Part shown: in pieces, positions 4,935 to 25,224 of the stretch
Numbering within the stretch: the first letter of the stretch is position 1
Layout: each line of letters begins with the position of its first letter
Notes under the pieces: generated by a model
Database searches by the model: none
What the model saw: only the letters and a program-made list of their open reading frames with translations
Told to the model about the DNA's origin: nothing
Translations under genes and position numbers: made by a program
Assembly: GCA_001603075.1 (NCBI GenBank)
Contig: LVBB01000006.1
Location: 1-64,000, forward strand
Length of the DNA stretch: 64,000 nucleotides
Source: Phycisphaerales bacterium Planc_01
Lineage (GTDB): Bacteria; Planctomycetota; Phycisphaerae; Sedimentisphaerales; Anaerobacaceae
Direction of reading: 5' to 3'

Positions 4935-6118
4935 TGGGCGATGACGCTGGAGACTCTGAAGACGGGCAGCAGAAGTGCGATGGCAATGGTCCCGATCACA
5001 ATGCCGAGGATCGTGATCATCAATGGCTCGATCACCGTCATAACGCTCTGGATCGATGCCGCGAGCTTCTTCTCGTAGAAGACCGACACTTTGTCGCAGA
5101 CCGCGCCGAGCTGTCCGGCCTTCTCGCCGGCCCGGAGCATCTGGATGATACTTGGCGAGATCAGCTTCGACCGCTCGGATATGAGGATTGCCTCCGAGAG
5201 CTGGTAGCCGTCCTGGATCCTATCGTCCACTTCCGCCCAGAGCTGCTCGAAATCGTAGTTGTCCACGCAGCCCTGGATTACATGGATCGCATCGAGCAGG
5301 CGTACGCCCGTGTTGACCATGGTGGCCATGATGCGCATGCTCCGTGTCACGACCATGTCCACGAACATGGTACCGATCACGGGGGTGCGAATCTTCACCC
5401 CGTCGAGGATGCGCCGCCCGGAGATCGTATGAGACCACAGGTACAGGCCGAATCCCAAGAGGATCACCGTCGTTACGAGCATGGCCATGATTTCCACGTT
5501 GCCGAGGATACGACTGAAATGCACGAGGACCTGGGTCAGTTTCGGCAAGGCCGCTCCGCGCGTCTCATAGATGCGCATGAAGCGAGGCAGGACGAAGAAC
5601 ATCAGCGTTCCGGTGGCGGCAATGGCCATCAGGACCATAATCAGAGGATATGTCAGGGCCCCGAGGACGCGCTTGCGCGTATCGGCCTCGAAGGTGAGAT
5701 AGCCGGTCAGCACCGTAAGCATCTCGACCATCTTGCCCGAGGCCTCCGAGGCCTTTACCATGCTGATGAACATCCTGTTGAAGATGCCCGGATAGAACGC
5801 CAGGGCCTTCGAGAACATCTCCCCGCCTTTGACCCGTTCGGAGAGATCGAGAATGACGGCTTTGAATCGGGGATCTCCCGCCTGTTCGCCGATGGCATCG
5901 AGCGCGTCGCTGAGAATGACGCTACTGTCGAGCATGACCGCCAATTGGGTGGTGAACAGGATCAAATCGGCGCTCTTGATCCGGATTCTCTCCAGTCCCC
6001 GCGCATTGGGCGCATGGCGAACGATCTCATCAGGGCCCCGCTTGGGGTCGCCTGGCGTATCGGACAGGGCCCCGGGATTCGCAGCGCCCTGTCGCATCTC
6101 TGCCGTCAACGTTGCCAT
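4931..6118 (-). CDS. gspF: Type II secretion/pilus platform protein GspF (PilC family)
   Basis: A 395-residue inner-membrane platform protein, the assembly base that couples the ATPase to pseudopilus growth. It has two GspF domains separated by a transmembrane segment: the first about residues 45-170 with LFTTQLAVMLDSS, the second about 250-375 with TRSMRIMATMVNTGV. Membrane helices lie near 170-200, 220-245 and 365-390. The length is normal for the family. It is the last gene of the secretion locus and lies 26 bases downstream of gspE. Its 3' end overlaps the convergent 2H phosphoesterase gene by four bases. Confidence 0.9.
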   Translation of the reverse strand: MATLTAEMRQGAANPGALSDTPGDPKRGPDEIVRHAPNARGLERIRIKSADLILFTTQLAVMLDSSVILSDALDAIGEQAGDPRFKAVILDLSERVKGGEMFSKALAFYPGIFNRMFISMVKASEASGKMVEMLTVLTGYLTFEADTRKRVLGALTYPLIMVLMAIAATGTLMFFVLPRFMRIYETRGAALPKLTQVLVHFSRILGNVEIMAMLVTTVILLGFGLYLWSHTISGRRILDGVKIRTPVIGTMFVDMVVTRSMRIMATMVNTGVRLLDAIHVIQGCVDNYDFEQLWAEVDDRIQDGYQLSEAILISERSKLISPSIIQMLRAGEKAGQLGAVCDKVSVFYEKKLAASIQSVMTVIEPLMITILGIVIGTIAIALLLPVFRVSSVIAH

Positions 6119-7914: not shown

Positions 7915-8250
7915 TCAGGCGAAGCTCCGGACGGCCTCGGCAAGTTCCGTATGACGGTCAAATTCCGTTTGCAGGCCTGTGATCTCGAGGATCTTCTCGA
8001 TCGTTTCGTCGAGCCCCGCCAGCTTGAGCTGTGTGCGGCTGCGGCGGCAGTACTCCCGCCCCCACACCAGCAATTCCAGCCCCTGACTGTCGATGGCGCT
8101 GGCGTTGCTCATGTCGATGACAATCCGCTTGCGGCCGAGGGATACCGTCTCGACGACGGTGTCCTTCAGAACATCCGCGATATCGCCGTCGATTTCGCCC
8201 TGGAGTTCGATCACAGTGACATCGTTGTAGTTCTGCGTATGGATCTTCAT
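7915..8250 (-). CDS. STAS-domain protein (anti-sigma factor antagonist-like)
   Basis: A 111-residue single STAS domain related to SpoIIAA/RsbV. It carries the IDMSNASAIDSQGLELL element, where the family usually has D-S-[ST]-G; the normally phosphorylated residue appears to be Gln, so the usual kinase switch may not operate. The ATG overlaps the stop of the HD-GYP gene (ATGA), and gspE begins 33 bases downstream. It therefore sits between signalling and motor genes of the secretion locus. No partner anti-sigma kinase or phosphatase is seen nearby, so its partner may be elsewhere or may be the HD-GYP protein. Confidence 0.8.
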   Translation of the reverse strand: MKIHTQNYNDVTVIELQGEIDGDIADVLKDTVVETVSLGRKRIVIDMSNASAIDSQGLELLVWGREYCRRSRTQLKLAGLDETIEKILEITGLQTEFDRHTELAEAVRSFA

Positions 8251-9923
8251 CGCAGCAAGGTCCCCACGGCGGCGGTGCCATAGTCCGCAAAATGGCCCCC
8301 GCTATATATGGATGAACTGTTCCCCTGGATCAGGTCCCACAGATGGTAGATGTCGCTTTCCAGGAAGATGGTGCCGACCCTGGCGTCGAACTGCGTCCCG
8401 AGCCCCTTGCGGATCTCATCCAGAGCCTGGTCCACGGTCATGGCATCGCGATAGACTCTTCTTGAAGTCATCGCATCAAAACTGTCGGCCAATCCGACGA
8501 TCTTCGCAGTCAGGGGGATCTCATCGCCGACCAGGCCTTCCGGGTAACCTCTTCCGTCGACGCGCTCGTGGTGGTGCAGCACGCCCGGAACGATGTCGCA
8601 CATCTGTTTGATGCCACGCAGGATCCCCGCCCCGATGGACGGATGGCGCTGAATGCGTTCTCGCTCTTCGGATGTGAGCCGGCCGTTCTTGCGGAGAACG
8701 TTCTCATCGACGCCGATCTTGCCGATGTCGTGCAGGAGTCCGGCAAGGTAGATCCGATGGATCTGCTCGTGATCGAGCGGCTCTCTCTCCCCGACCCGTT
8801 CGGCCAGCCACTGCGAGATGATCGCCACCCTCTCGGAATGGCCCCGGGTATACTGATCCTTGGCGTCGATGCTGTTGGTCAGAGCGCGGAGGGATCCGAC
8901 GAAGAGTTCCTTGAGGTCGTTGAAGAGGCGTCCGTTTTCGATGAACACGGCGCAGCCGCTGGCAACGGAGGCGAAGAGCTTCATATCCGTGCTGTCGAAG
9001 TCGGGTTTTTCGATCCGATTGACGGCGACCATGTAGCCCATGATCGTGACCGCATTGTGACTGCGACCGGTGGGACGTGCCTTCTGCGGGCCCTTGGCGC
9101 ACAGAGGCACCGCGATGATGTTCCTGATGCTCGCCGGCCAGTCGTAGCGAAATGCCGAATCCACCTCGCTGTCCAGCAGGGCCTCCTGACCGCGATGGAT
9201 CTCTTCGGTCAGCCGGCTGTGCAGCAGGGCCGTCATACGAGGCGGCAGGTCGATGAGTCCCGAACCGGCGGCCACCATGAATCGCCTCTCGCCCTCGACC
9301 GTTCGCTCCAGAACGATGGCGATCCCTTCGACCGGAACGATATCGGTCAGGCTGTCGCAGGCCAACTGCAGGAAGGTGCCGTCCGATTCGGTGACTTTCA
9401 TATTCGTGTTGATCTTGTGCAGCAGGACGAGTTCCTCATACACCTGGGCCAACTCCACGCCCATTTTTTCCATTTGCTCGTCGTTCTGCACGGCGTCGTG
9501 GACATTCTGAGCTTCCAGTCGGATCAGTTCGCTCAGGCAGGTCGCATCCAGGGCATCCCTTCCGGCCGGCGGCGTCTCTTCACCGAGGTCGACAACCATC
9601 ACACCCGCAAGACGGACGCAGCCGGGATCGTTGCACGGCAGACACAACGGAGCGGCCAGAAGCACGTGGCCGTCACAGAACCGCCATACACGGTCTGTGT
9701 CGCGGGTCTCCGCGCGCTCACAAACAGCCCGGCAGACGGCGCATCCGGCATCGACGACGGCCTGCGGGTCGCTGTCGAACCGCCCGGCGTTGTGGCGGAG
9801 CACAATCTGACCCTCCGTGTCCACCACGGTGAAGTTCACGCCAAAGCGTCCGATCCGCGATCCGAATCGGTCCAGGTCGCGTCGTTGCAGACACGTCAGT
9901 CCGTGTGTCATGGTATTCGGCAT
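8247..9923 (-). CDS. GAF and HD-GYP domain protein, probable cyclic di-GMP phosphodiesterase
   Basis: A 558-residue cytosolic signalling protein. The N-terminal 140 residues are Cys-rich (CAVCRAVC; CNDPGCVRL), suggesting a metal or redox sensor. A GAF-like domain covers about 175-345, and an HD-GYP domain about 360-535. The HD-GYP residues are present: HSERVA, the HDIGKIG pair, HPSIGAGIL, HHERVDGRGYP and the DSFDAMTS helix. The family hydrolyses cyclic di-GMP. I chose the ATG at 9923, which follows GAGGAGG; a further 62 residues are open upstream but read like non-coding sequence. It is coupled by ATGA to the STAS gene and follows the response regulator by 55 bases. Confidence 0.9.
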   Translation of the reverse strand: MPNTMTHGLTCLQRRDLDRFGSRIGRFGVNFTVVDTEGQIVLRHNAGRFDSDPQAVVDAGCAVCRAVCERAETRDTDRVWRFCDGHVLLAAPLCLPCNDPGCVRLAGVMVVDLGEETPPAGRDALDATCLSELIRLEAQNVHDAVQNDEQMEKMGVELAQVYEELVLLHKINTNMKVTESDGTFLQLACDSLTDIVPVEGIAIVLERTVEGERRFMVAAGSGLIDLPPRMTALLHSRLTEEIHRGQEALLDSEVDSAFRYDWPASIRNIIAVPLCAKGPQKARPTGRSHNAVTIMGYMVAVNRIEKPDFDSTDMKLFASVASGCAVFIENGRLFNDLKELFVGSLRALTNSIDAKDQYTRGHSERVAIISQWLAERVGEREPLDHEQIHRIYLAGLLHDIGKIGVDENVLRKNGRLTSEERERIQRHPSIGAGILRGIKQMCDIVPGVLHHHERVDGRGYPEGLVGDEIPLTAKIVGLADSFDAMTSRRVYRDAMTVDQALDEIRKGLGTQFDARVGTIFLESDIYHLWDLIQGNSSSIYSGGHFADYGTAAVGTLLR

Positions 9924-9978
9924 GGCCCTCCTCACGGTCAGCAGATTGCAGGTATCCGGCGTTCGTGGCCGTTCGCGA

Positions 9979-10371
9979 TCACACTCGAATGGCGACGGCG
10001 CGCTGATACAGGATGTCCTCGATCGTCTTGAGCAGCTCTTTGGGACTGAATGGCTTGCTGAGACACTCTTCGATCCCCAACGACTCCTGTATTTCCTGCG
10101 TGATCGCAAAACTGCGTGCCGTCAGCAGAACCGCTGGAATGTGTTTTGTCTCGTCGTTCTTCCGCAGCTTCTCGATCAGTTCGATCCCGGTGACGAAAGG
10201 CATTTGATAGTCCGTCACGACGATGTCGGGCTTCTCGCGGCATGCCAGTTCGTAAGCCTCGGCTCCATTGTTGGCGGCGACGACGTCGTATCCGTTGTTG
10301 CGCAGTTTTATGGCGACGACGTGAATGATGTGAATCTCGTCGTCCGCGATCAGCACCTTTTTGCCTGTCAT
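9979..10371 (-). CDS. Stand-alone CheY-like response regulator
   Basis: A 130-residue single receiver domain with no output domain. It has the acidic pair ADDE near residue 8, the phospho-acceptor Asp in IVVTDYQMP, the conserved Thr/Ser position in VLLTAR and Lys in LSKPFSP. It lies between a histidine kinase gene (63 bases upstream) and the HD-GYP gene (55 bases downstream), and is likely phosphorylated by that kinase. Two ATGs six bases apart are possible (10377 and 10371); GGAG is nine bases from the second and only three from the first, so the second is preferred. Confidence 0.88.
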   Translation of the reverse strand: MTGKKVLIADDEIHIIHVVAIKLRNNGYDVVAANNGAEAYELACREKPDIVVTDYQMPFVTGIELIEKLRKNDETKHIPAVLLTARSFAITQEIQESLGIEECLSKPFSPKELLKTIEDILYQRAVAIRV

Positions 10372-10434
10372 GTTCATCCACTCCAATACGGGGTTTACGA
10401 ATACCCTCTCCCACGAGAGGCACACCGTCGCTCG

Positions 10435-11883
10435 TCAGCGAGTGGCGCCCGCCATTTCAGCGGTGGCCAGAGGCAACTCGAATCCAAACGTGCTTCCGAC
10501 TCCGACCTCACTGGTCACGAAGACACGACCGTTGTGCACTTTCTCGACAATTTGCCGGACCAGGTTCAGACCCAAACCGGTCCCTTTGGCTTGCTTGTTG
10601 TTGGCGCCCACCCGATAGAACTTGTCGAATACATGGTCGATCTCGTCGGCCGGGATTCCCACACCGGTGTCGGTCACTGTGACACGTGCCAATGCATCGA
10701 CCTCGTTCACGTCCGTCTCGATCCGTACGCTCCCGCCGGACGGCGTGTACTTGACCGCATTGCTCAGCAGATTGACGATGACCTGACTGATCATGTCCTT
10801 ATCCGCCAGGACCTGATCGTACACGATGGGGTTGCGCCCGCTAACCGTGATGCCCTTTTCCTCAGCGAACCCCTTGATCATCTGCATCTGCTGTTCGATC
10901 AGAATCGTCAGACTGACCGGTTCTTTGCGGACTTTGATCAATCCCGATTCGATCCGGGAGATGTTCAGTATGTCTTCGATCAGGCGGTTCAGGCGTTGTG
11001 CCTGACTCTGAATCACCTGATAGAACTCCTTGCGTGTCTGTTCGTCGTCGGCCTCGCCGTCCGCGAGCATCTCGGAATAGGCCGTGATGGATGCCAACGG
11101 CGTTTTCAGCTCATGCGAGACGTGGCTGACGAAGTCGTTCTTCATCTGCGCGACTTCCTTTTCGCGTGTGATGTCGTGCAGCACCGCGACCACGCCGGAG
11201 ACCTTGTCCTGTTCCTGCACGCACGAGACGATCGTGTCAAACGTATGCGGACCATCCGGTTTGACGAACACCATCTCACGACGCGTGGCCTCCGTGGCAC
11301 TTTGCCGGCTGCGCTGGATCAACTGGACGAAGTCCTTGCATTGCGGACCCAGGCTCCGGCCCAACGGCTGATAGCGGGCCACTTCCGGATCGAAATCGAG
11401 AAGCTGCGCCGCCGCCGTGTTGGCCATCAAGAGCCGGTCCGACTCATCCACAACCACCACCGCATCACGCAGGCTGTAGATGATCGCTTCGGTGTGTTGC
11501 TTCTGCCGGTCGGAGAGCTGAGACCGAAGACGCAGGTCCTTCAGTTCGACCTCCAGCTCGCCGATGACCCTCCGACCCTCCTGCAGGCGGTCCTGGATGC
11601 TCTCGGCGGCCCGCTCGACCGCGCGCAGATCGGTCGGCAGGGCCAAATCGCATGAAAGCTGCCGGGCGATGGACGCAACCGTCCGGGCCAGCCGATGGTA
11701 GGCCAGACCAAGGACGATCACGCCCACAGCCCCAAGGCAGCATGCGGCAAGACGCCACGCAACGAACCCGTTGCGCCACCCTACTCCGATGCCAGAATCG
11801 TACAGCCCGGTCAGGGCCGCCAAGCATAGCGAGGCCATCACCATGCCTGCGGCGGCCCAGACCAAGCGTCGTTGACGTCTCAC
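10435..11883 (-). CDS. Membrane-bound PAS sensor histidine kinase
   Basis: A 482-residue kinase of the PhoR/WalK type. Two membrane helices lie at about residues 7-27 and 42-63 with almost no periplasmic loop, followed by a HAMP-like or coiled-coil linker (70-125). A PAS domain is at about 125-245, and HisKA has the phospho-acceptor His in SHELKTPL (about 257). The HATPase domain shows NLLSNAVKYTP, DTGVGIP and GTGLGLN. Translation starts at GTG with GGAGG seven bases upstream. It is probably the partner of the adjacent CheY-like regulator. The short external region suggests it senses an internal or membrane cue. Confidence 0.92.
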   Translation of the reverse strand: MRRQRRLVWAAAGMVMASLCLAALTGLYDSGIGVGWRNGFVAWRLAACCLGAVGVIVLGLAYHRLARTVASIARQLSCDLALPTDLRAVERAAESIQDRLQEGRRVIGELEVELKDLRLRSQLSDRQKQHTEAIIYSLRDAVVVVDESDRLLMANTAAAQLLDFDPEVARYQPLGRSLGPQCKDFVQLIQRSRQSATEATRREMVFVKPDGPHTFDTIVSCVQEQDKVSGVVAVLHDITREKEVAQMKNDFVSHVSHELKTPLASITAYSEMLADGEADDEQTRKEFYQVIQSQAQRLNRLIEDILNISRIESGLIKVRKEPVSLTILIEQQMQMIKGFAEEKGITVSGRNPIVYDQVLADKDMISQVIVNLLSNAVKYTPSGGSVRIETDVNEVDALARVTVTDTGVGIPADEIDHVFDKFYRVGANNKQAKGTGLGLNLVRQIVEKVHNGRVFVTSEVGVGSTFGFELPLATAEMAGATR

Positions 11884-11940: not shown

Positions 11941-13671
11941 TCAGCGTCTCTTCCAGTTTGTGGCCTCTTGCTGGTCGATCGCCTGTTGGACGATGCTGTC
12001 GATCCGCTCGAGCTCGGCCGGATCGGTTTCGACGACCATCCGCTCGCGAAGCCGAAGGGCTTCGAGATAGGTCGGACGCATCATCAGCGCCATCTTGACG
12101 TTGTAGGCGGCGCTGTCGATGTCACCTTCCAGGTAGTACTTGGCCGCCCTGGCGTAGGCGTCTTCGGCCAGCCGGGCGCGATCGATCGCCTGCATGCCGC
12201 GTTTGGCGCCGTCCATCTTCAGGCGGACATCATCGGCCCGATCGGCTCCACCGGTCTGCGAAGGCTCGTGGATGATATGCGGCGTCAGCATGATGATCAC
12301 CTCTTCCCGCTGCGCCGTATCTTTGGTGCCCCGGAACGCTGCACCCAGAAGCGGCAGATTGCCGAGCAGCGGGACCTGCGACCGCACTGTGGTGACACCG
12401 TCGCGGAACAGGCCGCCGATGACGACCGTCTCCTTGTCCTTGACGATCACATTCGTTCGCAGTTCCGTGGTTGTTTCATCCGGGATGTTGTTCTGCTTCA
12501 ACGTCCCGTCACTGTCCTTTGGATAGATGTCCATCCGGATGTAGCCATCGTTGCCGATGTACGGACGGAAGACCAGACGCGTACCGGTTTCCAGGAAGTC
12601 CACCGATTCGGTGGTGGAGGTCTGCGTCTGCGTGCTCTGGTTGACGTAGCCGATCTTCTTACCGATCAGCACCGAGCCTTCCTGTTTGTTGACGGCCAGA
12701 ATCTTCGGATTGGCCAGCAGCGTGGTGTCCGTCACATCCTCCAGAGCCGTGATGATCGCCTGGACGTTGTCGGACGAGAATCCCACCGTCATGCCCTTGG
12801 TACCGGGCGTGTTGGCAAAGCCGAAGGTCTCCCAGGGTGTTCCTTGTCCGCCGACGAGGTTCGCGGGGAAGTCGCTGATGGCCACACCGCTGAGCAGATT
12901 CCAGTCGACGCCCAACTGCATTGTTTCGGTCAGCCGCACGGCCAGAATGGTCGCCTCGACCAGCACCTGCTTGGGTCGCACGTCGATCTGGCGAATGACG
13001 TGCTCGGCCTTCTCGATGTTCTCCGGATAGTCAAAGACCACAATCATGTCGTTCAGGGCCATCTTGTCGCCGCCCCCGCCACCAGAGAGAGAGCCCCCGC
13101 CGCCGGAACCGCCGGCGGAGGAGATGCTGTTTTCGGCCGCAGTGGTCGTCGTGATCTGGGCCGCGGCGCTGAGCACCGGTCGGACCAGCTTCTCAGCCTC
13201 CTGGGCCGTCGTGTAATACAGCGTGATGACTCTGAAGACCATCCGGTCCGGATCCTGTCGGATCTTCTTGTCCTCTTCCTTGGTCCGAATGTGGATCAGA
13301 TTCCCTTCCGGCACGGCGACGAATTTGTCGCCCAGCATGGCGGCCAGCGCCTGCTCGAAGGTCACGTCCCGCAGTTCCGGGCAATTCAGCGGCCCGGTCA
13401 CGCCGGGCGAGGGAACGATGTTCTTCTCGCAGCGCTTGGCGAGAAGCCGCAATCCGTCACGAACGTCGCTGTCTTTTCGGAACGCGATGAACTTGATCAG
13501 GTTGCCCTCGACCCAGGCCTGATCGGGTTCCATGGCGATGGTGTCTGCAGCGCTGTCCGGAGCGGCAACGTCGCCTTCGGCGCCGGCCGCCGCAGCACAC
13601 CAGGTCAGCAGGGCCACGGCGAGCAGCCATCGACCCCAACACGGTTTCGCAAATGTCCTGTCATTATGCAT
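11941..13671 (-). CDS. gspD: Secretin, outer-membrane channel (GspD/PilQ family)
   Basis: A 576-residue secretin subunit exported by a Sec signal peptide (residues 1-32, ending near AAAAGAEG). The periplasmic N-domains include LEQALAAMLGDKF (an STN/N0-like region) and an N1/N3 region interrupted by a Gly/Ser-rich loop (about 195-220). The secretin core follows, ending in the conserved VPLLGNLPLLGAAFRG. The last ~75 residues look like a TPR-type helix pair instead of a typical S-domain. An AGGAG lies seven bases before the ATG at 13671. This is the outer-membrane pore of the locus. Confidence 0.9.
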   Translation of the reverse strand: MHNDRTFAKPCWGRWLLAVALLTWCAAAAGAEGDVAAPDSAADTIAMEPDQAWVEGNLIKFIAFRKDSDVRDGLRLLAKRCEKNIVPSPGVTGPLNCPELRDVTFEQALAAMLGDKFVAVPEGNLIHIRTKEEDKKIRQDPDRMVFRVITLYYTTAQEAEKLVRPVLSAAAQITTTTAAENSISSAGGSGGGGSLSGGGGGDKMALNDMIVVFDYPENIEKAEHVIRQIDVRPKQVLVEATILAVRLTETMQLGVDWNLLSGVAISDFPANLVGGQGTPWETFGFANTPGTKGMTVGFSSDNVQAIITALEDVTDTTLLANPKILAVNKQEGSVLIGKKIGYVNQSTQTQTSTTESVDFLETGTRLVFRPYIGNDGYIRMDIYPKDSDGTLKQNNIPDETTTELRTNVIVKDKETVVIGGLFRDGVTTVRSQVPLLGNLPLLGAAFRGTKDTAQREEVIIMLTPHIIHEPSQTGGADRADDVRLKMDGAKRGMQAIDRARLAEDAYARAAKYYLEGDIDSAAYNVKMALMMRPTYLEALRLRERMVVETDPAELERIDSIVQQAIDQQEATNWKRR

Positions 13672-13740
13672 AGCGTTACTCCTGTTCTTCCACATCCTGC
13701 TTCGTTGTACTCATTTCATTATCGTTCTAAAGCGCATCGG

Positions 13741-14349
13741 TTACTTTCTTACGTCAGTGGGCGGCGACAGCTTGAGCGTGTACTGTCTGTCTCCGCACCT
13801 CACAAGCACGGCGTCTTTCTGTATCTGCACTACTTCGAAGGGATAGAAGTCCGCACCGTCGCGCAGCGCGAGCGTATCCCCGACACGAATCAGCCGGTCG
13901 TTGACAAACGCCTGCGGATGGTCGCTCCACAGCACGGCCTCCAGTTCAAGTGTCTTGGCCAGTCTGGCGATCACTTCTTCAGTTCGATGGGTTTGTCCTG
14001 CCTTCACGTCTGCTTGCGGCGTCGTGCCTTGTGATCTCGATCCACTGGAGAACCGGCTCCAGTCGTTCGCGGTGAAAAAATCGCGGTGGATGCGGTCGTT
14101 TCGTCCCGGCCGGATCGGCAACTCCACGAACCGCACCGACGGTCCTTCGTCAGCCGCCTGCTCGACCTTCTGCGGCGAGGCCGGCCTGGCGTCAGCCCCT
14201 TTGGGCCTCTGTCCGACCAGAACCCGCAGCCACATCACGGCCATGATGGCGACCAAGGCAACCGCCACGCCTGTCTTCTTGCCATCTCGGATCAGATAGC
14301 CTGCCAGCCGAGTGGCTGAGCCAACGATGTGTGTCGCATTATGCATCAT
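13741..14349 (-). CDS. Bitopic PilP/GspC-like assembly protein
   Basis: A 202-residue inner-membrane protein with a cytoplasmic start, one membrane helix at about residues 25-45 and a periplasmic remainder. A Pro/Ala-rich linker is followed by a C-terminal beta-rich domain (NDRLIRVGDTLALRDGA, then FYPFEVVQIQKDAVLVR) that resembles the homology region of PilP/GspC, which links the inner-membrane complex to the secretin. Its position immediately upstream of the secretin gene and its 11-base overlap with pilO agree with this. Sequence similarity is too low by eye to name it more firmly. Confidence 0.6.
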   Translation of the reverse strand: MMHNATHIVGSATRLAGYLIRDGKKTGVAVALVAIMAVMWLRVLVGQRPKGADARPASPQKVEQAADEGPSVRFVELPIRPGRNDRIHRDFFTANDWSRFSSGSRSQGTTPQADVKAGQTHRTEEVIARLAKTLELEAVLWSDHPQAFVNDRLIRVGDTLALRDGADFYPFEVVQIQKDAVLVRCGDRQYTLKLSPPTDVRK

Positions 14350-14953
14350 CGTTCACGAGATCCCACAACCTGGCGTTCGTCGACTTCTTCGTTTCCTGCG
14401 TCCTCTGGGGGCGATAGAAGATGACGGCGTCCGTCTCCATCACCACAGTGCCGGCGAACTCTCGGTCGTTGGCCAGTGTGGTTCTCTCGATCCGCACAAG
14501 CCGGTCGAGATTCTGAAGGTCCGTAAAGAAGCCGAAGATGCCGGTCAGGTTCCCCGAGCACTTCATATGCACCGGGACGCAGACCAGATCGTTCGATACG
14601 CTTTCTCGACCGAAGACGACGTCTTGATCGGACAGATCGTGTTCGGTCATGATGCGGGCGATCTGCCTCAGGAACAGCCCCAGCGCGCTTTCGTCCGGAA
14701 TTTGACTCTGGGCGTTTCCGACCCGGTAGTCGATCTCCTCCAGGCGCGCCTTCAGGGCCCCGAGCACCTCGCTCTGCGATTCGGCAGTACGAATCATCTG
14801 CATCTGTCGGCTCTTCACCTCGGTTACGGACTGAAGTCGCTCACGCGACGGCAGATACCCATACAATACGAAATCGGCGAGGAAGAGCCCACCGACGGCG
14901 AGGACCCACAACTGCTGTCTTCGCAGCAACGATCTGGACCGGCTTTCGCTCAT
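14339..14953 (-). CDS. pilO: PilO-like inner-membrane assembly protein
   Basis: A 204-residue bitopic protein with a short cytoplasmic segment, one membrane helix (about 15-35), a coiled coil (about 40-80) and a periplasmic ferredoxin-like domain (about 90-190, including LTGIFGFFTDLQNLDRLVR, a PilO signature region). In type IV pili PilO forms a heterodimer with PilN and aligns the machine. It starts by ATGA overlap with pilN and overlaps the PilP/GspC-like gene by 11 bases. Confidence 0.82.
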   Translation of the reverse strand: MSESRSRSLLRRQQLWVLAVGGLFLADFVLYGYLPSRERLQSVTEVKSRQMQMIRTAESQSEVLGALKARLEEIDYRVGNAQSQIPDESALGLFLRQIARIMTEHDLSDQDVVFGRESVSNDLVCVPVHMKCSGNLTGIFGFFTDLQNLDRLVRIERTTLANDREFAGTVVMETDAVIFYRPQRTQETKKSTNARLWDLVNDDA

Positions 14954-15666
14954 CGCTTGGGACGCTCCTCATAGTTGGCCAGATAGCACACGATTTCAAA
15001 CTCCGTCACGCTGACCGCCCGCGTTCCTCTTCGCTGGCTGTCCTTCTCGGACGGTGATTCCGCTGTTGCGGCGACCTGAATCGTATTTTCGCGGAACAGC
15101 GGATGGACCTGCTGAAAGTACGGCGAATCGTCGAGACGGCAAACGAGAGCCCCGACTTCGGCGGGGTTGGTGGCAACTCCCACCAGGGCCACGCGAAATC
15201 GGACGTTGCCGAGGGAAACCGATTTCGTCGAAGGACGCGAGGCGCCGGCGATTCGCACGGCCGAACCGCCGCGATCCGTGTCCTTCGGGCCGGTCGGAAG
15301 CAGCTCCGAGAGGAACTCCACCCGGCTGAGGACCACCTGGTCGCCAATGACGTGACTGATCTCCGCCAGCACGGCCGCCACATCAATCCGCGCATCGACC
15401 CGCTGCAAGGCGACCGCGTCAGCCTGATGCACGCCGAGTTGTTTGCTGACCGCATCGTATTCGCGCAGGATGCCTTCGGCCCAATATCGTCGGTCTTCGA
15501 GTCGCGTCAACTCCGCGTTGACGCGCGCGACCCGGCGCGCGGCAATCGTGTTGTACGTTACCATGGCGAGGAAGAACGCAATCAGCACGGCGTACTGTCG
15601 TCTCATGCAGATCCGGCGACGTCGCCCTTCTCTGTGCCATTCGGGAAGAAAATCGATCTCTTTCAC
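14950..15666 (-). CDS. pilN: PilN-like inner-membrane assembly protein
   Basis: A 238-residue bitopic protein starting with the PilN-type element KEIDFLPEW, which binds PilM. A membrane helix lies at about residues 24-42, then a coiled coil (45-75) and a periplasmic domain. The start is a GTG that overlaps the pilM stop (GTGA), with GAAGGGG upstream. The reading frame stays open far upstream through pilM, but that extension is out of frame with pilM and reads as Arg-rich noise. The pilM-pilN-pilO order is the classical type IV pilus order. Confidence 0.82.
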   Translation of the reverse strand: MKEIDFLPEWHREGRRRRICMRRQYAVLIAFFLAMVTYNTIAARRVARVNAELTRLEDRRYWAEGILREYDAVSKQLGVHQADAVALQRVDARIDVAAVLAEISHVIGDQVVLSRVEFLSELLPTGPKDTDRGGSAVRIAGASRPSTKSVSLGNVRFRVALVGVATNPAEVGALVCRLDDSPYFQQVHPLFRENTIQVAATAESPSEKDSQRRGTRAVSVTEFEIVCYLANYEERPKR

Positions 15667-16814
15667 GATGACACCCCTTCCAGGATCGACTCCAATCCGA
15701 TGTCGGTCTTCACCAACTCGGCGGTCGAGGTGCCCCATCCCTTGAGGGTGAGCCCCACGGCCAGAGCGAAGTCCGCCGTGGCACCGAGATCTTCGATTCG
15801 CGTCCCGATCTGTCCCAGGTCGAAACCACGAAACGGCTCGGCGACATCGGCCTCGATTGCCAGATGGTGTCGCATCACGTTGAGGAAGGTCTGCTCCGCG
15901 ACGCCGCCGCCGGCGACGATGGCCCGCTCGACCCGCTTGCCGCGAAACGTCACGGTGTAATACCGCAGGCACAGGGCGATCTCGGCGGCCAACTGCTCGG
16001 CGGTCGCGTGCAGTGCATCGGCGACGAGCCGACGCGTCGTCGGATCGACGGCATCGGGCGACGGCATTGTACGGCGTAACGCCTGCGCATCCGCCACGGG
16101 GATGGACAGTTTCGCCGCGATATCTTCCGCGAAACGGGCCGCCCCAAACGCCATCTGCTTGACGAAACAAATCTCACCCGTGCGTCCGAGCACGACGGTA
16201 GTGTAGCGATGACCGAGGTCGAGGAACATGATGGTCCGTTCCCTGTCCTCCTGACGCCGCATCACTCTCTCGAAACTCCGGAACAAGGCGCATGGTGCCG
16301 CATCGATCCCGACCGGTCGCAGGCCGAGTCCCTCCAGCCGTCCCACATGAGTGCGAATCGTCTCATCATCGCTGGCGAACAGAATGTATTCATTCTTGAC
16401 CTCGTCGCCCTGTCGGACGCTGCCGGCCGACACGTAGTGGATGGCATCGGTCCGGGGGTCCAGAGCGAATCGGTGGGCCGCCTCCTTGCGCAGCGTCTTC
16501 TCAACCTCGGCAACCTCCGTCTCCGCCACACGCAACGACGTGATCCGTAGTCTGCTTGCCGGCAGAGTCGATACGACATCGCGTCCTTTGAACGCGCCGG
16601 CCGCCATCAAACGCCGAATGGCCGGAGCCACCTCGCTCCGCCAGGTATCCTCGTCACGAGGGTCGCTCAGATTCACGGCCGCTCTTTCGGCCGCAATCAC
16701 GCGCACTCCGTCGTCACAGACAGCCAACTGGACCATCTTGATCGAATGGTGTCCGATGTCCAGCCCGATGGGCAGGACCCTCTGTCGTCTTGTCATCCAA
16801 TGGCCGATCTGCAT
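15663..16814 (-). CDS. pilM: PilM-like actin-fold assembly protein
   Basis: A 383-residue cytoplasmic protein of the PilM/FtsA actin-like fold. The first phosphate-binding loop is in GLDIGHHSIKMVQ (about 17-29), the second in MFLDLGHRYTTVVLG (about 195-209), and the adenosine motif in IVAGGGVAEQ (about 315-324). PilM binds the N-terminus of PilN and connects the cytoplasmic ATPase to the inner-membrane complex. The ATG at 16814 has a weak ribosome-binding site; a second ATG at 16796 is possible. It follows the gspH-like gene by 10 bases. Confidence 0.88.
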   Translation of the reverse strand: MQIGHWMTRRQRVLPIGLDIGHHSIKMVQLAVCDDGVRVIAAERAAVNLSDPRDEDTWRSEVAPAIRRLMAAGAFKGRDVVSTLPASRLRITSLRVAETEVAEVEKTLRKEAAHRFALDPRTDAIHYVSAGSVRQGDEVKNEYILFASDDETIRTHVGRLEGLGLRPVGIDAAPCALFRSFERVMRRQEDRERTIMFLDLGHRYTTVVLGRTGEICFVKQMAFGAARFAEDIAAKLSIPVADAQALRRTMPSPDAVDPTTRRLVADALHATAEQLAAEIALCLRYYTVTFRGKRVERAIVAGGGVAEQTFLNVMRHHLAIEADVAEPFRGFDLGQIGTRIEDLGATADFALAVGLTLKGWGTSTAELVKTDIGLESILEGVSS

Positions 16815-16824
16815 ATCACATCAC

Positions 16825-17346
16825 TCAATCCGAGACGGAGATGAACCCCGTCACCGCCTCGACCGTTACCGTTCGGCTGATGCCCCCGGCCTGCAACACC
16901 ACGCTGCCTCCGTTGTCCGGGCTGCCGAGCGAGTTGAACGTCACGGTATTGTCCCCACCGAAAATGGCAGTATCGATATTCACACGATCCAGCCTGCCGT
17001 CGGTTGCGAAATCGACGATATACCCATTGTCTTTCTGGGTAATCGGGTGTTTAACCACGGTGTCGCTCAGCTGGTCCTTGATCGAATAACGTTCGTTCCC
17101 CGGCTCGAACACGACCGAGTGCGGCCGGCCCGTGGTAATGGCCATGCTCTTGGCATATTCGAGGTCGGCTGCCACGATGCCTCCGGCGGCGCGGATCTGC
17201 ATACTGGCCGCCGAGGAGATCAGCGGCACCGCGATCGTCGCCGCAATCCCGATGATCACGATCACGATCAGCAGTTCGATCAGCGTGAATCCACCGCCGA
17301 ACCGCATCGTCTGTCCAACAGATTGTGTCTTCATATTCCTACTCAT
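16825..17346 (-). CDS. GspH-like minor pseudopilin
   Basis: A 173-residue prepilin with an N-terminal leader ending in Gly followed by FTLIELLIVIVIIG (about residues 20-33), the type III signal cleaved and methylated by prepilin peptidase. The mature domain contains ADLEYAKSMAITTGRPHSVVFEP, matching the GspH/FimT pattern in which an early helix is followed by a beta-rich fold. AGGG lies six bases before the ATG. GspH-type proteins initiate or cap the pseudopilus. It is 10 bases from pilM, so it is probably in the same transcript. Confidence 0.8.
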   Translation of the reverse strand: MSRNMKTQSVGQTMRFGGGFTLIELLIVIVIIGIAATIAVPLISSAASMQIRAAGGIVAADLEYAKSMAITTGRPHSVVFEPGNERYSIKDQLSDTVVKHPITQKDNGYIVDFATDGRLDRVNIDTAIFGGDNTVTFNSLGSPDNGGSVVLQAGGISRTVTVEAVTGFISVSD

Positions 17347-17706: not shown

Positions 17707-19419
17707 TCACGGCTGCGAACGGCGAACGCTCCGGAAGAACGCTCCGGCCGCCGGACTCCAATGCTGCACCCCCGCTCCATCGCCAATCACAATCGCCGCC
17801 CGAAGCGGATCGGCAATGGCACGCACTTGTGAACCGCTGGTGGCATCAAACGTCCAGTGCCCGATCAATGACTCATCTGTCGGTGGGCCGGCGACCTCCA
17901 CGGCGGTCAGGGCCCGATTGTACACACGGACGTCGTCCAGCAGGCCCTTGTAGACGTAAGTGGATGAACCGGTCCGGTCGGCCCCGATGTTCAGGTGCCC
18001 GCCACCATTCCTCGGCAACGTGTCCATGGTTCCCGTCGCCCGTTCGGTCCCATCGAGATAGGACTTCATCGTGTTTCCCTGGCGAACCACGGCAACGTGA
18101 TGCCACAGCCCGTCGGTCAGTTCGCCGAGCAGGATGTCTGTGGACCACCGGGCCGTGTCGTGACCGACAATCAACTCCGTTGCCATGCTGTTAAACTGCA
18201 GGACCCAGTGGTTGCGATCCCCGGCGATGTTGGCTTTGCAGAGAATCCCCGCCCATGGCTTCTGAATGGCAGCCGGCTTGATCCAAACCGACAAGGTGTA
18301 GTCACCGGTTAGTTGCAGGCGTGTGTCGTCGTCCGGCGTCTGGACGTACTGGTTCACCCCATCGAGGGCCAAGGCCCCGCCGCCGGGCCACGTCGCGATA
18401 TTCCGAAGGATGGCGCCGCTGGCATGGGCGGAGGAATCAACTGTGGCCTCGGCGATCTCGCCTTGGGCAAACAGCCCCCCGACGATGCGAACGTCCGTGT
18501 CATGTCCGATGAGAACATGGCCGTCCACGACGACGAGCCCCACGATTTGGAGGTCCGTCGCACGGTCAAGGATCAGGTTGCCCGTGACATAGGCAGCCGG
18601 CAGGTTCTTGGCGGCCGTGAGCCGCACACCATCGCCCCGAATGACCAGGTCGCCATCAACCAGGAGCATGCCGTAGATGACCGAAGGCCCCTCGACGGTC
18701 ACATCGCTGCTGGATCGCCAGATGCGTTCCAGAGCGTAGTTGCCCGAGACGGACCCAGGACCGATGTTCGCGACCACGTAGTCCGGATGGCTGTAGCTCG
18801 CTGTCAGCGGCGGCCAGAGCAGCGTCAAATCACCTGTGAGCCTGGAAGCGCCTGTGATGTCGCCCACAAGGCCCGTCGCGAAGACATCGCCACCGATTGT
18901 GCCGTGGTTTGTCACACTCCCGGCCGAACGCACATCGCCGTGGACGGCCCAACGCTCGCGAACGACTACCGCCTCGTCGGTCCAGAGGGCGATGGCCGGG
19001 TCGAGGCGGAGCGTGGCTGCCAGGCGGCTCTCAGCGGTCCGCCGGCCGGTCCGCTCACGATAGGCCGTGGCGGTGGTCTCATACGTGCAGAAATCGTTCG
19101 GATTGGAGTCGTCGCGAACGATTGCGACATCGTAGAAATCCCCGCTGTCCTCGTCGAGTTGCTGACGCACTTCGCCCGTCCAGTAGACCGAAGGGACCTC
19201 CTGGGGATTCAGAAGCAGCCCGCGGGCGTGCTCCAGGCCGGAGGCGGCCAACTGGTCCATCTGCATGCGGACCGCCATATTCTGGCCGACCGCCAGCTCC
19301 GTGTCGCAGCGCGCGATAAAGCCCAGCGCCAGGATCGTGATCGCCATGATCATGCCCAACACCAGCAGCAGGGCCACGCCCCTGGGAGAAGACCGCATTG
19401 TCCGCCTTCGCCTACACAT
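17707..19419 (-). CDS. GspK/PilX-like minor pseudopilin fused to a LamG domain
   Basis: A 570-residue membrane-anchored protein. The N-terminus (SPRGVALLLVLGMIMAITIL, about residues 10-29) is the leader and hydrophobic helix of GspK/PilX-type minor pilins. The middle (about 150-330) is a beta-rich region with repeated short strands (VHGDVRSAGSVTNHGTIGGD). A laminin-G/concanavalin-like domain covers about 345-540, with ALDGVNQYVQTPDDD, YTLSVWIKP, WHHVAVVRQG and DDVRVYNRALTAVEV. GspK normally caps the pseudopilus tip, so the LamG domain would be displayed there. GAGG lies six bases before the ATG, and it overlaps gspJ by eight bases. Confidence 0.85.
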   Translation of the reverse strand: MCRRRRTMRSSPRGVALLLVLGMIMAITILALGFIARCDTELAVGQNMAVRMQMDQLAASGLEHARGLLLNPQEVPSVYWTGEVRQQLDEDSGDFYDVAIVRDDSNPNDFCTYETTATAYRERTGRRTAESRLAATLRLDPAIALWTDEAVVVRERWAVHGDVRSAGSVTNHGTIGGDVFATGLVGDITGASRLTGDLTLLWPPLTASYSHPDYVVANIGPGSVSGNYALERIWRSSSDVTVEGPSVIYGMLLVDGDLVIRGDGVRLTAAKNLPAAYVTGNLILDRATDLQIVGLVVVDGHVLIGHDTDVRIVGGLFAQGEIAEATVDSSAHASGAILRNIATWPGGGALALDGVNQYVQTPDDDTRLQLTGDYTLSVWIKPAAIQKPWAGILCKANIAGDRNHWVLQFNSMATELIVGHDTARWSTDILLGELTDGLWHHVAVVRQGNTMKSYLDGTERATGTMDTLPRNGGGHLNIGADRTGSSTYVYKGLLDDVRVYNRALTAVEVAGPPTDESLIGHWTFDATSGSQVRAIADPLRAAIVIGDGAGVQHWSPAAGAFFRSVRRSQP

Positions 19420-20089
19420 CGTCGTCCTCGCTCACGAGGCCGTCGCCGGCGTCGTTGACCAGGTGCTCGGCCGAGGCCAGCAGCGTCGCGCCGATCTGAT
19501 ACTGCCCGGCCGCGCCGTTCTCGATCCGCTCGAACGCAATCGCCAGGCGACGCGTCTTCCAGACGGCATCCGGCGGGTTGCCCTCCCCGTCCCAGAGACC
19601 GAATTGGACGTTCCGGCACGGCTCGACCAGCGTCACCTGCGTGTGATTGTGGCTGGACAGAAGGTTCGCCTTGGTCTGGGCCAGGGCCAGGTCGGCCAGC
19701 GAGACCTCGGCGTTGCTGCCCTCGGCGGCGTCGAACCAGCAGAGGCCGACGACGTCCCGATCGTCGCCCCGCTCGATGTACACCAGTTCGTTCACGTTGA
19801 TCCGGTGGTCGCCGTTGTCGCGCTGGGTATGTACCCACAGGACCAGGTCGTTGCCGGGCGCGGCGCAGACCATGCGTGCCAGGCGGACCGATTCGGTGAT
19901 GTGCAGCGTCGCCAGGCGAAGCTGGGCCTGTGCCTCGGCCGTGTCGCTGCCGGTCTGCACGCCGCTTCTCAGCGCAAAGGCCAGCGTGGCCACCGCCGAC
20001 AGAACGATCCCGGTGACGACCAGCGTCACGAGCAGCTCGGCCAGCGTGAAGGCCCGCCTTCGATGTCGGATTGCCGTCTCTGGTTTCAT
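19412..20089 (-). CDS. GspJ-like minor pseudopilin
   Basis: A 225-residue prepilin with the leader RRRAFTLAELLVTLVVTGIV near the N-terminus and a mature region typical of GspJ (about 190 residues, including RLATLHITESVRLARMVC). GspJ, GspI and GspK form the pseudopilus tip complex. I start at the ATG at 20089; a TTG nine bases upstream is also open. Its 3' end overlaps the GspK-like gene, which implies coupled translation of tip components. Confidence 0.8.
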   Translation of the reverse strand: MKPETAIRHRRRAFTLAELLVTLVVTGIVLSAVATLAFALRSGVQTGSDTAEAQAQLRLATLHITESVRLARMVCAAPGNDLVLWVHTQRDNGDHRINVNELVYIERGDDRDVVGLCWFDAAEGSNAEVSLADLALAQTKANLLSSHNHTQVTLVEPCRNVQFGLWDGEGNPPDAVWKTRRLAIAFERIENGAAGQYQIGATLLASAEHLVNDAGDGLVSEDDDV

Positions 20090-20130
20090 GTCGTTCAACG
20101 CGCCGTTCGCTTTACGTCATTGCCGGATGG

Positions 20131-20556
20131 TCATTTGCCGATCAAACGTTGGATGGTGGCGACGGGCCGCCCCTGATACCGGACGGTCACCGTGGCCAGA
20201 ATGAAGAAGTCCTGGGCCGGGTCCCACGCACACGTCGCTTCACGGCTGAAATGGGCGTACCGTGAATCACCCGGCGTGGCGCCGCCGACCTGGATCTGCC
20301 CCTCGGTTTCTTCCCAGCCGTCGTATCTCCCAACGATCTCATCGAATGGCGTGCCTGCAATCCACTCGATCAGGTCGTTGGCCAGCACCGCGCCCAGAGT
20401 GCGGTGCGCGCCCTCGGCTTGTGCGGCGGCGCCGCCCGAAAATGGCAGCAGGACGCCGGCGGCGGCTATCCCCAACAGCACCATCGCCAGCGTCGCTTCG
20501 GCCAGCGTGAAGCCCGGCCGGACCGCTGTGGTTCGTCTGGTTCGGTCAGTAGTCAT
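20131..20556 (-). CDS. GspI-like minor pseudopilin
   Basis: A 141-residue prepilin with leader PGFTLAEATLAMVLLGIAAAG, an early helix (AHRTLGAVLANDLIEWIAG) and a short beta domain ending in TVRYQGRPVATIQRLIG. Size and order fit GspI. The ATG at 20556 overlaps the stop of the upstream pseudopilin gene by 11 bases, so translation is probably coupled. The frame continues upstream but that part lies inside the preceding gene. Confidence 0.75.
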   Translation of the reverse strand: MTTDRTRRTTAVRPGFTLAEATLAMVLLGIAAAGVLLPFSGGAAAQAEGAHRTLGAVLANDLIEWIAGTPFDEIVGRYDGWEETEGQIQVGGATPGDSRYAHFSREATCAWDPAQDFFILATVTVRYQGRPVATIQRLIGK

Positions 20557-21049
20557 AGTACGCGATTCCCGCGTCGTCGGTCCCGCTGTTGCCCGGACGG
20601 ATTTCGCCCGTCTGGGCTCGGTAGATCCAGCCGTGACTGTTATCGGCCGCTGCCGGGAAGTCTTGTCCATCAGCCAGCATCTGGATCGTGGCTAACCCGT
20701 TAAACGGGTTCGTCGGCATCTTCGACAGATACGGTCCATGACCATAGCCGGGGGTTCCCCGTGCGGCCGTCTCGCCCAGGTCATTGCTCGACAGCAGCGC
20801 CTGATTGGCGAAGACATCGGCATCGAGCGCTGAGCCAGGACCGGCCGTATAACCGGGTGCTACCTCAAGGTGCTGGCTGGTGTACACCATCACGAACCGC
20901 CGAAGCATGTTCAGGTTGGTGACCATCGATCCGGCCCGAGCCGCCGTGCCGCTGTTGGCAACTGCCGGAATCACGATGGCCGCCAGGACGCCAAGCAACA
21001 CCACGACGATCAAGATCTCGACCAACGTGAAGCCTCTTGTTCTACACAT
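20546..21049 (-). CDS. GspG-like pseudopilin (paralogue 3)
   Basis: A 167-residue prepilin with a very short leader (MCRTRG) and FTLVEILIVVVLLGVLAAIV. The globular part has the array hallmark GPYLSKMPTNPFN (about 120-132) and GWIYRAQTGEIRPG near the end, both shared with the two following paralogues. It overlaps the GspI-like gene by 11 bases and has GGGAG four bases before the ATG. It could be a minor or alternative pseudopilin. Confidence 0.82.
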   Translation of the reverse strand: MCRTRGFTLVEILIVVVLLGVLAAIVIPAVANSGTAARAGSMVTNLNMLRRFVMVYTSQHLEVAPGYTAGPGSALDADVFANQALLSSNDLGETAARGTPGYGHGPYLSKMPTNPFNGLATIQMLADGQDFPAAADNSHGWIYRAQTGEIRPGNSGTDDAGIAYYDY

Positions 21050-21142: not shown

Positions 21143-21634
21143 TCACAACCCCGCATGGTGGGCGCTGTGGTTGGCGTAGATTTCGCCGGTCTCGGGCACA
21201 TAGGCCCAGCCGGCGCCCCCTTCTATGGGGATCTCGTCCCGGCTTCGGGCCCGGACGATGGTCTCACTGCCGTTAAAGGGGTTGCGCGGAACGCGGTCGA
21301 GATAGGGACCGTAGATGTGCACGTCGTCCCGCTTGGTTCTCGGTCTGCCCGACTTGACGGTTCCATCGGCGTCGGTGCAGCAGAGCATCTGCTCGAAGCC
21401 CGGATCGAACTCGATTGCGCCTTCGGCGTTCGACATCGGCGGCAGACCGTGATGCTGGACCTTGTACAGCTCGATTTGCGAACGCAGCAACTGGAGCTGG
21501 TTGCACAGATCGTCCATCCGATTCTCGGCGATCCCGGCGCCGCTGAACCGGGGCACCACCACCGCCGCCACGATCGCCAGCACGATTACGGCGATGGCCA
21601 TCTCCATCAGTGTAAAGCCCCTGCTTCTTCTCAT
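21143..21634 (-). CDS. GspG-like pseudopilin (paralogue 2)
   Basis: A 163-residue prepilin with leader RRSRGFTLMEMAIAVIVLAI, a helix (LCNQLQLLRSQIELYKVQH) and the motifs GPYLDRVPRNPFNGSE and GWAYVPETGEIYANHS. The helix and end motif align closely with paralogue 1. A pair of Cys (QMLCCTDADG) may bind a metal or form a disulfide. GGGAGG is six bases before the ATG at 21634; a longer in-frame extension to 21676 has no ribosome-binding site. Confidence 0.84.
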   Translation of the reverse strand: MRRSRGFTLMEMAIAVIVLAIVAAVVVPRFSGAGIAENRMDDLCNQLQLLRSQIELYKVQHHGLPPMSNAEGAIEFDPGFEQMLCCTDADGTVKSGRPRTKRDDVHIYGPYLDRVPRNPFNGSETIVRARSRDEIPIEGGAGWAYVPETGEIYANHSAHHAGL

Positions 21635-21698
21635 CCCCTGCCTCCCGATTCCATACCAACGACGCCGATACATCACACATCGTTTGCGGTGTTACAAG

Positions 21699-21815: not shown

Positions 21816-22313
21816 TTACAGGTCCACGTGCGCTGTTCCGCCGGCAGTGGTCCCGCCATCGGCGGCATGGATTTCTCCGGTTGCCGTGTCGTAACCCCAA
21901 CCGACGCTGCCGTCTGTAGTGCCCGCAGCACCAAGAGTGTCAAGATTGTTGAACGGATTCTGGGGAATTCTTTCCAGATAGGGGCCGTAGATGAAGCCAT
22001 TGGCCGCATCTCGGGCCTTGCTGCCACTGGGATTCCCATCGATGTCAGTGGTCTCAGTCATCTGCGCGAGGAAATCAGTATTGACGGTGCCGGTGGACCC
22101 ATCCAATAGGGCCGAACCAGGCGCTCTGTCGTTGTGCTGAACCTTGAACAGCTCGATCTGCGAGCGCATCGACTGGAGATTGCTGCACAGACTGTTCGTC
22201 TTGGCCTCAGTGCTGGCCTGGGTGAACTGCGGGACGACGATCGCGGCCAGGATGCCGAGAATGACCACGACGATCAGGATTTCCACCAACGTAAAGCCTC
22301 TTTTTGCCTTCAT
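21816..22313 (-). CDS. gspG: GspG-like major pseudopilin (paralogue 1)
   Basis: A 165-residue prepilin with leader MKAKRG and FTLVEILIVVVILGILAAIV, the best match to canonical GspG. The helix LCSNLQSMRSQIELFKVQHN is followed by GPYLERIPQNPFNNLD and GWGYDTATGEIHAADG. It has a strong GAGGAGG eight bases before the ATG, is first in the locus and is followed by its own terminator; all three fit the abundantly made major subunit. It is polymerised by GspE and GspF below the secretin. A prepilin peptidase is required but not found in the window. Confidence 0.87.
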   Translation of the reverse strand: MKAKRGFTLVEILIVVVILGILAAIVVPQFTQASTEAKTNSLCSNLQSMRSQIELFKVQHNDRAPGSALLDGSTGTVNTDFLAQMTETTDIDGNPSGSKARDAANGFIYGPYLERIPQNPFNNLDTLGAAGTTDGSVGWGYDTATGEIHAADGGTTAGGTAHVDL

Positions 22314-25201: not shown

Positions 25202-25224
25202 GTCGGTCTCTCCATTCTGAGGGT

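Follow-up and report, generated by a model that had tools for sequence, protein, structure and literature searches.

What does a LamG domain do in a pseudopilin that holds the GspK slot of a secretion or pilus machine? The question is raised by a gene at 17707..19419 on the minus strand of the window (the whole stretch of 64,000 nucleotides that was analyzed), which an initial annotation had interpreted as a GspK/PilX-like tip pseudopilin with a prepilin leader, a beta-rich middle and a LamG-type C-terminus. The gene is a single intact ORF of 570 aa with its stop codon at 17707-17709, and its start (ATG) shares 8 bases with the end of the J gene. Residues 1-14 (19378..19419), ending in SSPRG, form the prepilin leader: RSSPRG followed by VALLLVLGMIMAITILALGFI can be aligned with 27 homologs, and the Gly is invariant across all 28 rows. 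As in leaders of the type 4 pilin superfamily, Gly 14 precedes about 21 hydrophobic residues. The subsequent pilin module (residues 15-145; 18985..19377), delimited by sequence and alignment, comprises a hydrophobic helix and a head. Judging from these sequence features, the product is a pseudopilin of the type 4 pilin superfamily, as annotated, with processing and filament assembly predicted. Unlike in the 28-row alignment, the leader-end Gly is missing in homologs L103, L104 and L075 (genomes G085, G084 and G027).

GspK of type II secretion systems (T2SS) is reported to lack Glu 5, which its fellow pilins have (PMC5207764). The mature protein studied here starts with VALLL, so that its fifth residue is Leu and not Glu, and the translations of G1, G2, G3, I, J and H, the other six pseudopilins encoded in the operon, all show Glu 5. 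It is also by far the largest pilin of the operon (570 aa versus about 131-228 aa) and closes the minor pilin cluster, in the order G-G-G-I-J-K with H after. The GspK model NF037980 matches residues 13-84 (profile positions 2-76 of 307) with 24.8 bits, its cut-off being 130, and Verru_Chthon_A scores 14.7 bits in the leader region against a cut-off of 332; the Pfam N_methyl model has no match in the 570-aa protein. Since NF037980 remains below its cut-off, we speak of a GspK-slot protein rather than of GspK. In that form the annotated GspK type holds: the missing Glu 5, the size and the place after I and J indicate that the protein fills a GspK-type slot.

The surrounding operon encodes a complete set of T2SS- or type IV pilus (T4P)-like components. 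In minus-strand order, three GspG-like pseudopilins identified by profile (21816..22313, 21143..21676 and 20546..21049, numbered G3, G2 and G1) are followed by an I-like minor pseudopilin (20131..20670, true start probably internal), a J-like one (19412..20098) and the GspK-slot gene; I and J were recognized by profile and context, with their letters taken from their place. Then come a GspH-like pseudopilin (16825..17346), PilM (15663..16814), a PilN-like protein (14950..15699; 22.0 bits, cut-off 22.8), PilO (14339..14953), a small membrane protein (13741..14349) and a secretin of the GspD/PilQ type (11941..13695). The small membrane protein matches nothing in Pfam or NCBIfam at E <= 0.01 and is assigned to the GspC/PilP position by its place. 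Past the secretin, profiles identify a histidine kinase (10435..11883), a response regulator (9979..10425), an HD-domain protein (8247..10109; HD_5, which we read as HD-GYP type), a GspE/PilB assembly ATPase with an MshEN domain (6145..7881) and a GspF/PilC platform protein (4931..6118). In 34 of the 35 context loci, as far as their contigs reach, the slot is flanked by the I/J pilins on one side and by H-PilM on the other; G038 is the exception.

Several other features of the neighborhood may be recorded here. The assembly ATPase matches the cyclic di-GMP-binding motif model NF053729 along with MshEN, and the HD_5 protein is encoded alongside, so control of the machine by c-di-GMP is possible. 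A rhamnogalacturonan lyase gene (family 11; 23498-25228) lies in a syntenic block beside tsaE and thiL; besides the window, 9 of the 35 context loci have it (some cut short), LamG-bearing and LamG-less alike. A link to anti-phage defense was dismissed, as there was no PADLOC match at E <= 0.01. The 5.65-Mb genome of the window (G000) has 81 LamG_3, 19 T2SSE and 14 secretin matches, and thus appears to hold many filament or secretion systems.

The LamG domain itself is well defined. Its core (residues 353-510; 17890..18363) matches PF13385 over the entire profile (positions 1-151 of 151, E 9.5e-30, 104.2 bits, cut-off 27.6), and 305 PDB chains are found at E <= 0.001. In accord with the annotation, an AlphaFold model of residues 318-570 is a jelly roll with ten-residue core blocks at pLDDT 66-95 and both ends below 50; the alignment behind it had 61 other rows, namely L039 and 60 LamGs from viral contigs. 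Comparison of the model with solved structures gave Z scores of 15.3-19.1 across the best 50 entries. The best match was dimethylformamidase (Z 19.1, rmsd 3.0, 191 residues aligned), and further neighbors were PAPP-A (Z 17.7-18.9, rmsd 3.1-6.5), domain 4 of AbnA with an arabino-oligosaccharide (Z 16.3, rmsd 3.0, 178 aligned), the sialic-acid-binding CBM40 (Z 16.2, rmsd 2.5, 163 aligned) and pentraxins. Profile and model together support a LamG jelly-roll fold. The neighbors with the best Z scores, dimethylformamidase and PAPP-A, display the same fold in domains with other roles, which counts against reading a glycan ligand from the fold.

The domain is not, as had been proposed, the C-terminus of the protein. 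The inserted segment spans about residues 324-535 (17815..18450), is missing at this site in LamG-less orthologs, and is followed by a conserved pilin C-tail (residues 537-570; 17710..17811; DPLRAAI...WSPAAGAFFRSVRR) in which WSPAAGAFFRS resumes downstream of LamG. Orthologs without LamG (about 360-430 aa) read ...GGLF...ITAAPxxAxIxxW...RWSPAAGAFFRSIER, whereas in those with LamG, GGLF and ITAAP are separated by about 200 residues and the same tail follows. Since this tail is kept in the LamG-less orthologs, LamG is an insertion, and a simple C-terminal fusion can be ruled out. For the same reason, a cleavable C-terminal domain fits poorly.

The insertion also appears to be circularly permuted. 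In six of the seven other LamGs read from the window's genome, the seventh being cut by a contig edge, an LVAxWKLDE-like strand precedes the core. The GspK-slot protein departs from this usual order (an LVxHWxLDE strand, then the core): DSSGN leads into the LamG core and the strand comes after it. The motif LIGHWTFDA (residues 518-526; 17842..17868) resembles the pre-core strand of the genome's other LamGs, and the AlphaFold model has a strand at 518-522 within a block at pLDDT 83. A HW-x-LD-like strand after the core is present in 32 of 32 LamG-bearing rows and in 0 of 26 LamG-less rows, as scored with a pattern written with the alignment already in view. By sequence comparison, residues 518-526 would therefore be the usual first strand of LamG, permuted to behind the core, just ahead of the pilin tail.

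Between the pilin module and LamG lies a middle module (residues 146-323; 18451..18984) that we describe as beta-solenoid-like on the basis of weak profile matches, strands in the model and its absence from short homologs. The annotated beta-rich character agrees with the look of the sequence, in the place where GspK has an alpha-domain; the profile match is weak (Bactofilin, 15.4 bits, cut-off 27.9). Two LamG-less orthologs do exceed a cut-off, L030 with Bactofilin (30.8) and L211 with DUF7305 (28.3). The full-length AlphaFold model, built from two sequences, is poor (overall pLDDT 35), although it has strands at about residues 211-300 in blocks at pLDDT 49-75. A PDB sequence search with a LamG-less frame returned weak matches, mostly to phage spike and fiber proteins; neither GspK nor ComZ is named among them. 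The solenoid fold is accordingly a prediction. Five short homologs of 161-195 aa (G084, G085, G050, G054 and G042) end soon after the pilin head, those of G084 and G085 in AFFTSIxR, and lack the beta-solenoid-like module. As the middle module is absent from these homologs as well, the protein looks like a series of nested inserts.

We next considered how widespread this architecture is. The gene occurs in 55 of 89 genomes of the family at E <= 1e-10, one copy each. Classified by length and sequence, 31 copies have the same LamG insertion (among them the interrupted G030, G018 with its end cut, and G098), one has an independent graft, 20 lack LamG (including G034, cut just past the site), two are short, with neither LamG nor solenoid, and one is cut off (G017). 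The fusion expected in related genomes is thus found, with the same architecture, in 30 family genomes besides that of the window, and this together with the intact ORF rules out chance or an annotation artifact. A J and/or GspH neighbor is present on the fetched stretch in all insertion genomes but G098, whose 4,990-base stretch has no J, I or H. Class-wide, the gene was found in 74 of 397 genomes, with LamG also in three genomes from another family within the same order (G043, G059 and G334). A scan of genome contigs gave three loci, of which L039 alone matched over the full length; L040 yielded no 200-aa ORF near its match. The first ortholog alignment left out L012, which shares its genome with L039, and the cut-off L033, and the later 58-row alignment of GspK-slot proteins left out rows under 340 aa and G030.

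Presence of LamG varies even within genera: g13 (G068 with, G067 without), g32 (G036, G102, G103 and G105 versus G107 and G108) and g63 (G098 versus G099), the slot of G098 and hence the mixed state of g63 being less sure as its operon was not seen. Many of the compared genomes are fragmented and one is recorded as a MAG. Contig chimeras were nevertheless rejected as the source of this pattern, although any one pair might be an artifact: single-contig genomes occur in both states, with LamG (G003, G016, G075 and G076) and without it (G006, G022, G058 and G074). Two copies deserve separate mention. In G030 (L027/L056), LamG is split by a frame interruption. In G027 (L075, minus strand, about 10110-8900), the pilin module is fused directly to a LamG of the usual order, without a solenoid; a stretch that we read as Ig-like follows, and the frame is interrupted inside LamG. 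This copy is a second, independent LamG graft in the same operon slot.

On a tree of the operon (J, I, H, PilM, PilN, PilO and GspD; 61 genomes), the LamG state changes 11 times, at least nine of the changes being forced by well-supported branches, compared with 20.7 on average for shuffled labels; the state is therefore clustered but labile. The tree comes from a quick search with SH-aLRT support only, omits G038, G103, G098, G017 and G034, and codes G027 with its own graft as lacking LamG by length. G064 is probably misplaced and seven rows cover less than half of the columns, so 11 may be too many and nine is the forced figure. These changes do not tell gain from loss.

Where LamG is present, its type does not track the operon. 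Among LamG-bearing rows, identity correlates with that of the operon at Spearman 0.77 for the N-module and 0.25 for LamG, and with the other baseline at 0.67 and 0.19, LamG being lowest. G3 (0.29) and GspD (0.38) are also low, probably owing to mixed paralogs and fragments, so this measure alone proves little. The sisters G078 and G079 are 87% identical in the N-module, 75% in the solenoid and 82% in the permuted strand plus tail, but 31% in LamG; the LamG of G078 has 65% identity with its counterpart in G016, from another genus, and that of G079 has 69% identity with its counterpart in G077. Against exchange, the LamG type is retained in some closely related pairs (G077/G079, 69%; G021/G014, 68%; G000/G005, 63%; G003/G004, 63%). 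Five informative AU tests rejected the operon grouping for LamG (p 4e-57 to 0.013). The groups were picked after the identities had been seen; seven were set and six completed, all rejected, that of G036+G105 being uninformative because its genus-mate G103 lies outside the group. The tests left out the long branches G043 and G102. In the LamG tree, one clade of 17 rows (100/100) unites 16 GspK-slot copies, including that of the window, with the LamG of another protein in G057, and a second clade has seven rows (96/97). Trees and identities agree that LamG types do not follow the operon and have been exchanged between lineages. The recombination behind this exchange could be neutral.

A replacement can be traced at the DNA level between the window and its sister species G001. 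In 300-base windows, identity starts at 90-93% over the 5′ end of the gene, drops to 50-63% in its middle and is 76-94% in the genes that follow. It falls sharply at both ends of a mosaic segment (17812..18978), where windows straddling a border give in-between values; a codon-level comparison puts the breaks close to residues 147 and 536. At third codon positions, identity is mostly 70-100% outside the segment, with a lowest block of 50%, and 20-60% within it, apart from a single block of 80%. Since silent sites have changed too, this points to replacement and not to faster amino-acid drift alone. The replaced piece consists of the solenoid, LamG and the permuted strand.

Which known systems resemble this protein? 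The initial annotation knew of no standard counterpart, which is too strong a statement. PilC, a minor pilin of the T4P of Streptococcus sanguinis, carries a ConA-like lectin module, binds glycans and has been modeled at the tip, and PF13385 is among the common modules of modular pilins, where a type 4 pilin is joined to a LamG_3 domain (PMC9934059, PMC8179133). With its pilin and ConA-like modules, the GspK-slot protein belongs among modular pilins with a lectin module, glycan binding being putative. PilC, which has Glu 5 and belongs to a monoderm T4P, has its lectin grafted at the C-terminus behind an Ig-like module, and the portions of the source at hand describe no exchange at one locus (PMC9934059). 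The survey of PF13385 pilins relied on the IPR012902 motif, and the GspK-slot protein has no Pfam N_methyl match; the accessible part of that survey describes no insertion, permutation or operon context (PMC8179133). GspK of T2SS shares with our protein the lack of Glu 5, a size above that of its fellow minor pilins, the last place in the I-J-K cluster and an extra domain inserted in the pilin module (PMC5207764, PMC8179133), but there the insert is an alpha-domain and here a beta-rich module with LamG. ComZ of Thermus thermophilus has a beta-solenoid inserted into its pilin fold, as is predicted here, and is argued to sit at the tip as a ligand receptor; it differs in binding DNA, and the excerpts mention no LamG (PMC6561018, PMC8179133). 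Neither a LamG in a GspK slot nor an exchange of lectin heads turned up in the literature on pseudopilins and lectin pilins, of which few subscription papers and only parts of several sources were covered. Lectin-module pilins are thus already published; what is new is that LamG is inserted, nested and permuted, into a GspK-slot subunit and exchanged like a cassette.

We propose, as a probable though by no means certain account, that the protein is a tip minor pseudopilin of nested modules whose LamG is an exchangeable ligand-binding, probably glycan-binding, head. The pilin module would bear an inserted beta-solenoid, at whose end the permuted jelly roll is inserted before the pilin tail resumes. 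By analogy with GspK, the protein may cap and start the filament together with I and J, placing LamG on top as a candidate ligand-binding head, with a glycan as the probable ligand given the fold. The pilin part would be kept across lineages as it must fit the machine, and the head, lost or exchanged for another LamG type in related lineages, would decide what the tip recognizes. It is the combination of conserved assembly parts and an exchanged, presumably exposed part, along with PilC, the PF13385 pilins and ComZ, that suggests a tip receptor with an exchangeable head. That 20 of 55 family orthologs do without LamG speaks against a receptor head, as does the finding that LamG types other than the window's are not confined to the GspK-slot gene.

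An exchangeable head might instead serve cargo selection: in a short T2SS pseudopilus that stays within the cell, LamG would recognize the cargo to be secreted, or glycans on it, inside the vestibule of the secretin, and the heads would track the cargo. The ATPase, platform protein and secretin score slightly better against T2SS models than against pilus models (GspE 609 versus PilB 604 bits, with cut-offs of 630 and 676; GspF 243 with a cut-off of 424, better than PilC; GspD 208 versus PilQ 183, with cut-offs of 351 and 284). The assembly ATPase is the sole T2SSE-family match in the window, so there is no retraction ATPase within the window, and GspK has been proposed to be stopped by the secretin (PMC5207764). 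However, 609 versus 604 bits is no real difference, the T2SS and T4P scores being about equal and all below the curated NCBIfam cut-offs; PilM, PilN and PilO are pilus-type names, and a LamG on a solenoid would presumably be bulky for the secretin lumen. We regard cargo selection as unlikely, though worth keeping in mind.

The sources of the heads bear on both the tip-receptor reading and the remaining alternatives. These searches scored 33-35 candidates per genome where more existed. No other LamG of the window's genome matches the window's LamG at E <= 1e-20 (35 of 71 candidates scored), and among the candidates scored, all 17 family matches at that threshold lie in the GspK-slot gene; outside the family, a LamG of the usual order that ends a 978-aa protein of G057 is 44% identical. 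For the G078 type, the best three matches in other genomes are GspK-slot copies, among which the LamG of an 828-aa protein (51%) ranks. For the G083 type, other proteins supply the nearest LamGs among the matches listed (up to 55%), and G004 is the first GspK-slot copy (37%; in the alignment, G003 at 43%). From these patterns, heads seem to have been both passed among GspK-slot copies and drawn from the general LamG stock.

A bulky LamG could also act as a steric stop or gate that limits filament length or plugs the secretin, in which case its type would hardly matter and could drift or recombine neutrally. LamG-less orthologs at the same slot (20 of 55) and the interchangeability of types at one site would suit such a role, but the window's type is confined to the GspK-slot gene (17 of 17 among the candidates scored), and the absence of LamG in sister species argues against an essential cap; we consider this role quite improbable. 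Ordinary domain shuffling, in which an abundant domain landed in a permissive loop with no specific function, would agree with the 81 LamG matches of the genome, the similarity of the G083 and G078 types to LamGs of other proteins and the second graft in G027, yet it appears very improbable given an insertion site, junctions and a permuted order that 32 of 32 rows share, the retention of LamG across numerous lineages from two families in the order, and a LamG type found, among the candidates scored, in the GspK-slot gene alone.

If the tip-receptor reading is right, what would the head recognize? The filament tip is thought to be the site of recognition, and its specificity is hard to study since tips rarely vary cleanly. 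This locus offers a natural swap: the machine is conserved, it has a single insertion site for several types of head, and head-less relatives occur within the same genus. Recognition by T2SS/T4P-like tips thereby becomes directly testable, and the locus may link planctomycete polysaccharide use to a defined receptor. Fibers of planctomycete crateriform structures bind dextran (PMC5394234), making a polysaccharide a natural guess for the ligand; no link between those fibers and this operon was seen in the part of that source at hand. In a more speculative and rather unlikely extension, each lineage would fit its tip with a LamG suited to its polysaccharide by recombining the segment, and the filament would capture that polysaccharide for surface attachment or uptake, much as the crateriform fibers bind dextran. 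The locus would then be a naturally swapped specificity cassette on a secretion or pilus machine.

Finally, the J pseudopilin (19412-20098) is 92% identical to its counterpart in G005 and 44% to that in G002; the neighboring I and H are 62-69% identical to those of G002. The presumed tip partner J may therefore vary too.
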